Shown piece by piece: positions 21,229 to 24,315 of a stretch of 64,000 nt of DNA. Origin of the DNA: Solirubrobacterales bacterium 67-14 (lineage in GTDB: Bacteria > Actinomycetota > Thermoleophilia > Solirubrobacterales > 70-9); NCBI GenBank assembly GCA_001897355.1, contig MKST01000011.1:359466-423465 (forward strand), given 5' to 3'. The position numbers and the translations under genes were made by a program. Under the pieces are notes generated by a model. The model was not told the origin of the DNA, searched no databases, and saw only the letters and a program-made list of their open reading frames with translations. How positions within the stretch are numbered: the stretch's first letter is position 1; every line of letters begins with the position of its first letter.

Positions 21229-21282
21229 CGCGACCTTGAGTTTTTGGTCATATACGGACCACTAACTCAACCTCACTGATTC
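21229..21282 (+). repeat. 54-bp terminal inverted repeat, left copy
   Basis: Identical over 54 bases to the reverse complement of 22385-22438; homology stops sharply at both edges. It contains an imperfect dyad: arms 21232-21249 and 21257-21274 match at 14 of 18 positions around the loop ATATACG. It begins 27 bases past the stop of the AbiEi-DUF559 gene. Confidence 0.92.
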
Positions 21283-21308
21283 CGAGAACTAGCCAGCCCA
21301 CTCCCCAC

Positions 21309-22268
21309 TCACATGAATCCCAGCTCGAGGGCGATCCGGTCAAGGCTCCCGACCGGATCTGCGTCGTACTCGCCATAGGTAAGCCGCCTCACAGTCTTCC
21401 CCCTTGCCATGAGAAATCGCGACTTCTCGAGATCGATCGCCCGCTGAACGGGATCGCTGTGGTAGGCGCCACCATCCAGTTCGAGCACAAAGTCCTTCTT
21501 CGGCCAGTGTTGGTCGACCTCCCGGCCGTAGACCTTCACGTTGATTTCCGGCAACGGGTACTTACGGTCGATCCAATCGAGCAGAACCCGACCTTCGAAC
21601 ACCGACTTGATCCGGTTCAGACCGGGAACCCACATCGTCAAAAGCGGCCTGAGCTTCTTCGCTCCCGGACGCCCATGAAGCGCCCGGAAGCATTCCATGG
21701 CTTCGCGTTTCTTGATGAATCCGAGCCGGCAGGCCTCAAGAAATGCGAATCGGACTTCCCGCTCAGAAGCATCAGCAGCGAACTCGATCAGCGCATGAAC
21801 CGGGCTCACCGCTTCGAGGCGGTCGACTCTCCTGATAGAGGCCGGATCCAGCTGCCGCCGCACCACGTCGACGCGGCAATTTCTCATCGCCTTCGATTGA
21901 CCGTCGTAGATCGAGGCCTGTCCGTACGGCCTGGCCACCTGGATCACCCCAGGCAGGGTTCCGCTCGGCTTGACCAACCCCCACTTTTCACAGGCACTTC
22001 GCCCGGTCAAGGCCGAACCCGGGCCCGCTGCCACGAGCGCGGCTTTGAAGGCCGCGTTCCTCGATTCGATGTCGCGCCCGTAGGAGTAGACCCCGCGGAG
22101 CACCGGCGTGAGTCGTCCGGACTTCAGCCAGCTTCGGATCTGGGTTGGGCTGAAACCCGACTCGATCAGTTCTGCACGACCCGCGATCGACCACCGGTAC
22201 GCCACGAAGCGAGCCAGTGGCTCCCACCTCGGCGAGGATCTTTCGCTTGTCCGGACGGTCGGCTCCAC
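21309..22268 (-). CDS. AbiEi-like winged-helix / DUF559 (Vsr-like) nuclease-fold protein
   Basis: A 319-residue protein. The N-terminal part (about 25-100) resembles the AbiEi_4 winged-helix domain of type IV antitoxins (GFSPTQIRSWLKSGRLTPVLRGVYSYG, GPGSALTGRSACEKWGL). The C-terminal 100 residues resemble DUF559, a Vsr/PD-(D/E)XK-like nuclease fold: a Glu in KSVFEGRVLLDW, Asp in GREVDQHWP and the E-x-D of FVLELDGGAYHSD, then LEKSRFLMARGKTVRRLTYGE. The catalytic acidic residues appear present. It starts at GTG 22268 with no obvious ribosome binding site. No partner toxin gene is adjacent. Proteins of this architecture are common in actinobacteria; function is unproven, with antiphage or selfish-nuclease roles possible. 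Confidence 0.75.
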   Translation of the reverse strand: MEPTVRTSERSSPRWEPLARFVAYRWSIAGRAELIESGFSPTQIRSWLKSGRLTPVLRGVYSYGRDIESRNAAFKAALVAAGPGSALTGRSACEKWGLVKPSGTLPGVIQVARPYGQASIYDGQSKAMRNCRVDVVRRQLDPASIRRVDRLEAVSPVHALIEFAADASEREVRFAFLEACRLGFIKKREAMECFRALHGRPGAKKLRPLLTMWVPGLNRIKSVFEGRVLLDWIDRKYPLPEINVKVYGREVDQHWPKKDFVLELDGGAYHSDPVQRAIDLEKSRFLMARGKTVRRLTYGEYDADPVGSLDRIALELGFM

Positions 22269-22384
22269 ACCGGGAGCCTGACCTGAAAAAGCTCACATGT
22301 GTTGCGACGGGTGTGACAAGTGTGCAACGCGTCGGGGATGAGCCGCGCGGGAGATGCTCGCTGCCCTCCGCTAGTCCTCTCGCC

Positions 22385-22438
22385 GAATCAGTGAGGTTGA
22401 GTTAGTGGTCCGTATATGACCAAAAACTCAAGGTCGCG
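22385..22438 (-). repeat. 54-bp terminal inverted repeat, right copy
   Basis: Perfect reverse complement of 21229-21282. It lies 116 bases upstream of the AbiEi-DUF559 start and ends 17 bases before the glmS stop codon, so the insertion point would be right after glmS. Confidence 0.92.
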
Positions 22439-22455: not shown

Positions 22456-24315
22456 TTACTCGACGGTTACGGTTTTGGCGAGGTTTCGGGGTTGGTCTAC
22501 GTTGAGGCCGTTGAGGCGGGCTACGTGGTAGGCGAGAAGTTGGAGGGGGAGGATCGCGAGGAGGGGTTGGAGGACCCAGTCGGTGCGGGGCACCTGGATC
22601 GTCTCCTCAGAGACCTTGCTGACCCGGTCGTCGCCCTCGGTGGCGACCGCGATCACGTCGGCGCCGCGGGCCTTGACCTCTTCCATGTTGGAGAGCACCT
22701 TGTCGAGGATCGGACTGTCGGTCGCCACGCAGACCACCGGGGTCGACTCGTCGAGCAAGGCGATCGGGCCGTGCTTCATCTCGCCGGCCGCGTAGGCGTC
22801 GGTCGGGATGTAGGAGACCTCTTTCAGTTTCAGGGCGCCCTCGAGGCAGACCGGCAGGCCGATGTGACGGCCCAGGTAGAGGAAGAACTTCTGCTGGTAG
22901 TGGCGCTTGGCGATCTCCAGCATGCGCTCGGACTCGGAGTCGATCGTCGCCTCCATTTTCTCCGGGATCGCCCGCAGTTCGTTGATCAGGCCCTTGACCT
23001 CGGAGAAGCCGATCGTGTCGCGCAGCTCGGCCAGCCGCAGGGCGACCAGGTACATCGCGGCGACCTGGGCGACGAAGGTCTTGGTTGCGGCGACCCCGAT
23101 CTCGAGGCCGGCCCGGGTGAACAGGACCGCGTCGGAATCGCGGGTCGCCTGGCTGCCCATGATGTTGGTGATCGCCAGCACCTTGGCGCCGCGGTCACGG
23201 GCCAGGCGCATCGCGGCCAGGGTGTCCGCCGTCTCGCCGGACTGGGTGATGCCGATGACCAGGTCGTTCTCGCCGATCACCGGGTCGCGGTAGCGGTACT
23301 CGGAGGCGATGTCCATCTCGACCGGCACCCGGGCCCAGCGCTCGATCGCGTAGCGGCCGACCAGGCCGGCGTGGTAGCTGGTGCCACAGGCGACGATCAC
23401 GATCCGCGAGGCGTTCTTCAGGACCTCATCGCCGAAGCCGATGTCGGAGAGGTCGACGCTGTCGTCGTCGGTCAGCCGATCGAGGATGGTCTCGGCGATC
23501 GCTTCCGGCTGCTCGTGGATCTCCTTCATCATGAAGGTGTCGTACCCCCCCTTCTCGGCCGTCTCTGCGTCGCCCTGGAACTCCTCGGGATCGCGCTCGA
23601 CCGGCTCGCCGTCGGCCTTCGTCACGGTCACGCCATCGGCGGTCAGGGTGACGATCTCGCCGTCGTCGATGGTCAGGGCGAGGCGGGTCTCGTTGAGGAA
23701 GGCGGGGATCGCCGAAGCGATGAAGTTCTCCCGCTCGCTGACCCCGACGATCAGCGGGGTTTCCTTGCGGGCTCCGACCAGGACGCCCGGCGCGTCGGAA
23801 TGCATGGCGACGATCGAGTAGTGGCCGCGCAGGTCGGCGTAGGCCCGGCGCACCGCCTCGGTCAGGTCGCCTTCGTAGTAGCGCTCGATCAGGTGGGCGA
23901 CCACCTCGGCGTCGGTCTCGGAGGTGAAGGTGACGCCTTCGTCCTGCAGCTTGCCCTTCAGGCGGACGTAGTTCTCGACGATGCCGTTGAGGACGATCTG
24001 GACCTTGCCGGACTCGTCCCCGTGCGGGTGGGCGTTGGCCTCGGTCACCCGGCCGTGGGTGGCCCACCGGGTGTGGGCGATGCCGGTGAAGTGGCCTTCC
24101 TCATCGGGTTCGGTGGTCGCCGAAAGATCGGTTCCCTCCAGCGCGCTCCGCAGCCCGTCGAGGTTCCCGACCGCACGCACCTTCTTGACCCCCTCCTCGG
24201 GGGCGAGGATCGCAACCCCGGCCGAGTCGTACCCCCGGTACTCGAGCTTCTGCAGCCCGGCCACGAGAATCTCCTCGGCGGGACGGTTGCCGACGTATCC
24301 GATGATTCCGCACAT
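22456..24315 (-). CDS. glmS: Glutamine-fructose-6-phosphate aminotransferase (isomerizing)
   Basis: A 619-residue GlmS that makes glucosamine-6-phosphate for peptidoglycan. The N-terminal glutaminase has the nucleophile Cys2 in MCGIIGYVG, HTRWATHGRVTEANAHPH and a NGIVENYV loop. Two SIS domains follow with IVACGTSYHAGLVG, DLVIGITQSGETADTLAAM, RAGLEIGVAATKTFVAQVA and the C-terminal YHVARLNGLNVDQPRNLAKTVTVE tail, which is intact. It follows glmM on the same strand with an 82-base gap. Its stop codon lies beside the right end of the inverted-repeat cassette. Confidence 0.96.
   Translation of the reverse strand: MCGIIGYVGNRPAEEILVAGLQKLEYRGYDSAGVAILAPEEGVKKVRAVGNLDGLRSALEGTDLSATTEPDEEGHFTGIAHTRWATHGRVTEANAHPHGDESGKVQIVLNGIVENYVRLKGKLQDEGVTFTSETDAEVVAHLIERYYEGDLTEAVRRAYADLRGHYSIVAMHSDAPGVLVGARKETPLIVGVSERENFIASAIPAFLNETRLALTIDDGEIVTLTADGVTVTKADGEPVERDPEEFQGDAETAEKGGYDTFMMKEIHEQPEAIAETILDRLTDDDSVDLSDIGFGDEVLKNASRIVIVACGTSYHAGLVGRYAIERWARVPVEMDIASEYRYRDPVIGENDLVIGITQSGETADTLAAMRLARDRGAKVLAITNIMGSQATRDSDAVLFTRAGLEIGVAATKTFVAQVAAMYLVALRLAELRDTIGFSEVKGLINELRAIPEKMEATIDSESERMLEIAKRHYQQKFFLYLGRHIGLPVCLEGALKLKEVSYIPTDAYAAGEMKHGPIALLDESTPVVCVATDSPILDKVLSNMEEVKARGADVIAVATEGDDRVSKVSEETIQVPRTDWVLQPLLAILPLQLLAYHVARLNGLNVDQPRNLAKTVTVE

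Follow-up and report, generated by a model that had tools for sequence, protein, structure and literature searches.

A lone gene between hairpin-forming repeats

In the genome of Solirubrobacterales bacterium 67-14, a cassette made of one gene and two flanking repeats lies next to glmS (Table 1). We analysed it within a window of 64,000 nucleotides, the whole stretch of DNA under study (assembly GCA_001897355.1, contig MKST01000011.1, positions 359,466 to 423,465 of the forward strand). The gene encodes a protein with an AbiEi-type part and a Vsr/DUF559-type nuclease part, and each repeat is a palindrome that also occurs without the gene elsewhere in the genome. G-numbers designate genomes (G000 is that of the window), L-numbers loci and C-numbers contigs; a palindrome copy without the gene is called a solo.

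The two arms of the cassette are 54-nt reverse complements with 54 of 54 positions identical (97% at 59 nt), and each forms its own hairpin, TTGAGTT-(2)-TGGTC-loop-GACCA-(2)-AACTCAA. The flank-to-flank score of the cassette is 57, and none of the other 45 open reading frames (ORFs) of the window exceeds 16.5: the identity of the arms is far above chance. GC content is 60.9% in the cassette versus 67.6% in the window, which places the cassette among the lowest 1% of equal-sized windows. The AbiEi-Vsr gene is the only gene inside; its product matches no transposase family, and an Rfam search of the cassette returned nothing up to E 1. No AbiEii nucleotidyltransferase partner is encoded in the cassette, whose adjoining ORFs are glmS and a DUF3352-like gene; the latter is followed by acpS, nnr, a CBS-domain gene and alr (all named by reading the sequences). 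A preliminary description of this DNA, made from its letters, had pointed out the perfect inverted repeat around a lone gene, the low GC content, the lack of a transposase and the position between glmS and a DUF3352-acpS-nnr-alr run. All of this proved correct. The description had passed over the CBS-domain gene, the hairpin in each arm and the further copies of that hairpin in the genome.

Table 1. Coordinates of the cassette, its parts and its neighbour glmS within the window.
Feature	Position	Strand	Remarks
Left arm, 54-bp inverted repeat	21229..21282	+	hairpin core 21236-21270 (TTGAGTTTTTGGTCATATACGGACCACTAACTCAA)
Lone gene, 319 aa, AbiEi-type N-terminal part and Vsr/DUF559-type nuclease	21309..22268	-	
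Predicted Vsr / I-Bth0305I type nuclease fold, codons of residues 221-318	21315..21608	-	matches to 3hrl, 3r3p and 1cw0; invariant residues
Predicted AbiEi antitoxin fold (winged helix and C-terminal domain), codons of residues 13-214	21627..22232	-	VIA-align to 6y8q; AlphaFold
Promoter-proximal motif TTGCAC..TCACA..TGTGAGC	22291..22327	-	60 nt upstream of the assigned start
Right arm, 54-bp inverted repeat	22385..22438	-	hairpin core 22397-22431
glmS, neighbour of the cassette	22456-24315		named by reading the sequence

The protein is predicted to combine an AbiEi fold with a Vsr-type nuclease

The Pfam family AbiEi_4 matched the window protein above its cut-off and MTES_1575/DUF559 matched below threshold; on the aligned homologues, MTES_1575 was found in 15 of 15 and DUF559 in 14. 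An AlphaFold model built from an alignment of 11 had a predicted local distance difference test (pLDDT) score of 89.8, with a confidently predicted winged helix. Residues 13-214 of the model aligned with the AbiEi antitoxin 6y8q (VIA-align Z 12.2 over 182 residues, root mean square deviation 4.7). Residues 221-318 aligned with the DUF559-type protein 3hrl (Z 11.8), the homing endonuclease I-Bth0305I (3r3p, Z 11.4) and Vsr (1cw0, Z 10.9). The residues E225, D252, E263, D265, H270 and D279 of the nuclease site are invariant throughout the family, in line with the acidic active site noted in the preliminary description. A family profile search found 3hrl and, weakly, 3r3p (E 0.39); a phmmer search with the nuclease domain alone gave chance matches only. 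By the predicted structure, the protein joins a complete AbiEi fold to a Vsr / I-Bth0305I-type (PD-(D/E)XK) nuclease. This likeness of fold does not establish equality of function.

The AbiEi part raises the question of a role in defence. The PADLOC AbiEi profiles match the window protein, and the gene could be of an anti-phage or toxin type, with terminator hairpins insulating it. We regard this as very improbable: the cassette lacks the AbiEii partner, phage and plasmid collections contain no match, the hairpins lack a T run and yield no terminator call, and terminators need not match at both ends of a gene. The idea of a defence gene in a mobile shell, put forward in the preliminary description, thus finds little support; the AbiEi fold is the sole point in its favour. 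Ordinary terminators were ruled out for the arms, which have neither T tracts nor a terminator call, and cargo of a plasmid or phage was rejected on the same lack of database matches.

Gene and private palindrome recur together in relatives

We examined a close set of 16 genes, the window gene and 15 from its genus that share 46-55% identity with it, and scored flanks as paired when they reached at least the 99th percentile of mismatched-locus pairs. All 16 have a hairpin private to their locus both upstream and downstream, versus 1 of 106 neighbouring ORFs and 0 of the 45 other window ORFs at the same level. Chance pairing of common hairpins was rejected by the mismatched-locus and neighbour-ORF controls. 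Paired flanks were also found at 10 of 26 distant homologues (26-33% identity) and at 11 of 20 loci, most of them taken from further genera, families and classes within the phylum and two of them paralogues in the window's own genome. The pattern thus extends to several distant families of actinobacteria, and across the phylum the flanking link is with one gene family, that of the AbiEi-DUF559 genes.

The orientation of the flanking copies varies: they are inverted at some loci, such as the window cassette, and direct at several others. At several loci the stop codon of the gene falls inside the downstream hairpin. The promoter-proximal motif keeps its fixed distance from the assigned start in most close homologues and is likely the cassette's own promoter/operator.

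The palindromes are dispersed as solo copies within single genomes

The 35-nt hairpin of the window cassette occurs at three more sites in G000, all solo and with 2-3 mismatches, and a search with its 22-nt core adds a fourth. G000 thus contains four solo and two flanking copies, and the core is absent from all 100 relatives searched, 17 of them in the same genus. The preliminary description had proposed this search and had held that repeats standing elsewhere without the gene, as ordinary terminator or promoter elements, would speak against a mobile cassette. Such gene-free copies do exist, but they make up a species-specific family of dispersed palindromes and not an ordinary terminator or promoter. 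The solo sites inspected are intergenic, and none of the 24 regions fetched around solo copies of the window and related hairpins contains a DUF559-like gene.

Other genomes gave the same picture. The hairpin of the G011 cassette has 17 copies with at most 3 mismatches in its own genome and none in eight congeners, and dispersed copies of their own hairpins are also present in G012, G007, G001 and G009. When all hairpins were searched together, most cassettes proved to have solo copies in the genome that carries them. These copies number up to 16 per genome, are nearly identical within a genome and far outnumber the cassettes. Eight genomes that belong to other families of the order contain none of the hairpins. 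Elsewhere in the phylum, in further families, dispersed copies are numerous in G116, G196, G169 and G195 and few in G140; a pattern search of G116 with at most 3 mismatches recovered the cassette copies only, because the solo copies there differ by 10-17%. Central CGC-(TATA)-GCG-like loops recur in hairpins of distant families.

Species-specific families of small dispersed palindromes are typical of miniature inverted-repeat transposable elements (MITEs) and of repetitive extragenic palindromes (REPs) (PMC3733652). The palindromes could therefore be miniature elements of this kind that depend on an ordinary transposase for movement, and the DUF559 gene would be a passenger. Such an origin seems most unlikely to us, given that the flanking link holds to one gene family across the phylum and that none of 10 of these genomes matched Y1_Tnp, the control being positive and other transposase families lying outside this search.

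Three further observations concern the arrangement of solo copies. In G196, solo palindromes stand in tandem with a spacing of ~62-72 bp (for example C23:123773-123963, C7:14036-14225 and C25:20-299). The solo loci L044 and L045 (G000:C3:337838 and G000:C7:96809) resemble each other past the hairpin on both sides, over ~85 bp; therefore the repeated unit of the window palindrome family may extend past the hairpin. At the solo loci L046 and L047 of G000, at L214 (G012) and at L118 and L117, we noticed a second palindrome family, GGTGGGTCGGATTTCCGG...GGAAATCCGACCC. It lies beside window-family solo hairpins, and another DUF559 gene (L118, L117) has it ~200 bp upstream and 430 bp downstream, so several families may share intergenic sites.

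Hairpins turn over at fixed sites

We compared sites between species after removing the hairpin and joining its flanks; every genome of the genus had regions that matched. The site of the solo hairpin G000:C7:38103 has no hairpin in G007, G010, G013 and G015 and a different hairpin in G001. The site G000:C11:741385 has a hairpin in G000, G011, G012, G015 and G010, a different one in each of the five, and none in G001 and G013. Thus, hairpins appear, vanish or change at fixed chromosomal sites. Empty junctions exist in relatives, where the intergenic DNA is too diverged to place insertion ends.

The glmS-DUF3352 site, whose comparison the preliminary description had suggested, is occupied by a cassette in G000, G007, G011 and G012 and by none in G015, G010, G013 and G001; the empty junctions that were read retain no hairpin. 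The two ends of the cassettes at this site match each other with scores of 20-57 within a locus versus 8-22.5 between loci. Ends also match within the locus at a second site (siteB), with a weaker trend between close species. A single origin of the four cassette proteins of the glmS site was rejected (approximately unbiased test, AU p = 0.0016): they do not form one clade, and the window protein branches with that of another cassette in G000 (support 89/88). The siteB cassette was inherited in place by four species (100/98), with differing hairpins. An alignment of the hairpins of the siteB relatives and solos was 95.6% paired, with double changes in 8 of 18 pairs: changes in the stems are compensatory. 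L214 (G012) and L215 (G015) share a site upstream of the gap gene that holds a further hairpin, GGTGCCTATGGATT..AATCCATAGGCACC; its inner stems differ between the two genomes yet remain complementary.

Both ends of a cassette change together while the site stays, so homogenisation is as good a reading of perfectly matching arms as recent insertion. The preliminary description had taken the identical arms to imply recent movement or gene conversion. Recent turnover is indeed likely, but identity of the arms need not mean recent insertion because both ends change together within a locus at sites that have not moved.

The same comparisons bear on whether the cassette moves as a whole, as a single-gene transposon or homing element, with solos being excision scars or unoccupied targets. 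The rejected single origin of the glmS-site cassettes, the nearest relative of the window protein in its own genome, the nuclease fold close to that of I-Bth0305I and the promoter-like motif carried along by the cassette all speak for such movement. We nonetheless think it unlikely: solos far outnumber cassettes and are nearly identical within a genome, the siteB cassette has kept its place in four species with differing hairpins, and the empty glmS junctions hold no hairpin. Of the earlier suggestion of a selfish element moved by its own nuclease, what stands is that the unit is real, recurs together with a promoter-like motif of its own and has its repeat bound to a nuclease gene. A simple transposon with terminal inverted repeats fits poorly because mainly the palindrome multiplies, siteB stays put across species and the repeats are direct at several loci.

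A regulatory role for the palindromes appears comparably unlikely. They could be operators through which the AbiEi winged helix binds a dispersed regulon and its own gene, the nuclease having another role. In Streptococcus agalactiae, AbiEi binds two inverted repeats and thereby represses its own promoter (PMC3985639); in our case the winged helix is confidently predicted and the solo copies inspected are intergenic. However, the promoter-proximal motif, with its own TCACA..TGTGA inverted repeat and fixed distance to the start, is the better operator candidate. Operators also leave unexplained the downstream copy, the up to 16 solos per genome with genome-private sequences, and the fact that related species differ in the hairpin found at a given site.

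Discussion

Taken together, these results suggest a system resembling the REPtrons, in which an AbiEi-Vsr nuclease takes the place of the REP-associated tyrosine transposase (RAYT) and is bound to, spreads or maintains its own palindrome family; we put the probability of this reading at roughly 0.6. The association of gene and palindrome, a private palindrome for each gene, the dispersal of solos and their presence or absence at matching sites were observed, as were cassette ends that match each other, same-site palindromes that differ between species and the lack of Y1 transposases in the genomes checked. Binding and cleavage of the palindrome by the protein, and the route of copying, we infer. 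Most likely, the protein would recognise its own palindrome as a cruciform, hairpin or duplex. It would then nick or cut the palindrome, and host repair or replication would copy palindromes into new intergenic sites and homogenise existing ones. The gene would be kept because it lies inside repeats that it maintains, and it would now and then be carried along.

Several findings weigh against this proposal. Within the range tested, roughly half of the more distant homologues lack a flanking repeat. The hairpins of G138 and G180 were not found beyond the cassette region, and few or no solo copies were found for the cassettes of L083, L101, L106, G138 and G180. The flanking repeats are inverted or direct, unlike those of a simple transposon, and the Y1_Tnp search rules out one transposase family.

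More broadly, there may be a phylum-wide class of dispersed palindromes spread and homogenised by AbiEi-Vsr nucleases, outside the HUH and DDE transposases, with enzyme and palindrome co-changing in each species. We hold this wider view tentatively, at slightly less than even odds.

REPtrons consist of GTAG REPs and IS200/IS605-like Y1 transposases. Like them, the present system has a single gene between palindrome copies with a private class for each gene, and gene-free, intergenic, species-specific dispersed copies. It also shares the 'orthoswitch' pattern described for REP/RAYT systems, in which orthologous genes at one site are flanked by different repeat classes (PMC3686654). Unlike REPtrons, it has an AbiEi-Vsr (PD-(D/E)XK) fusion instead of an HUH tyrosine transposase, and its repeats are longer (~43-60 nt), mostly single hairpins and sometimes direct at the flanks. 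The GTAG tetranucleotide is absent from the repeat ends in the window and in the solo hairpin sequences read directly. The large group of CGTC-tagged REPs, for which no dedicated transposase is known (PMC3733652), likewise consists of small dispersed palindromes without an assigned mover; in our case no CGTC tag was noticed and a gene is attached to the palindromes.

The nuclease part resembles Vsr-like (EDxHD) homing endonucleases such as I-Bth0305I in its predicted fold, its conserved acidic and histidine residues and its stand-alone intergenic gene. It differs from them in that it is joined to an entire AbiEi fold, lies between genome-dispersed palindromes and, in our material, was not found in phages. 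The closest known counterparts of the AbiEi part are the type IV antitoxins (6y8q) and Rv2827c (1zel), and in the model this part has the complete AbiEi antitoxin fold; unlike AbiE type IV toxin-antitoxin systems, the cassette has no AbiEii toxin gene and adds a C-terminal nuclease.

In the open-access literature, a body that leaves out most subscription papers, we found no description of an AbiEi-DUF559 gene with a palindrome system, and nothing on DUF559 with AbiEi, on DUF559 with an inverted repeat or on REPIN/RAYT in Actinobacteria; the titles and abstracts of papers mentioning DUF559 contain no such system. We would call the system new by component and similar to REPtrons by architecture, because its enzyme is not that of a REPtron, it lacks the AbiE operon, it has no recognised transposase and no report of it was found. 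If any unit of a gene plus dispersed palindromes counts as one kind, it would be a variant.

In the REP literature examined, no enzymes other than RAYTs are linked to dispersed bacterial palindromes. Our results suggest that short repeats spread in a way not yet described, without the enzyme known to be associated with them. If this holds true, a second, unrelated enzyme family would have REPtron architecture, a case of convergent evolution of repeat-spreading. Many actinobacterial DUF559 and AbiEi-DUF559 genes of unknown function would gain a testable role, and their many natural enzyme-palindrome pairs would lend themselves to studying the joint evolution of a nuclease and its target.
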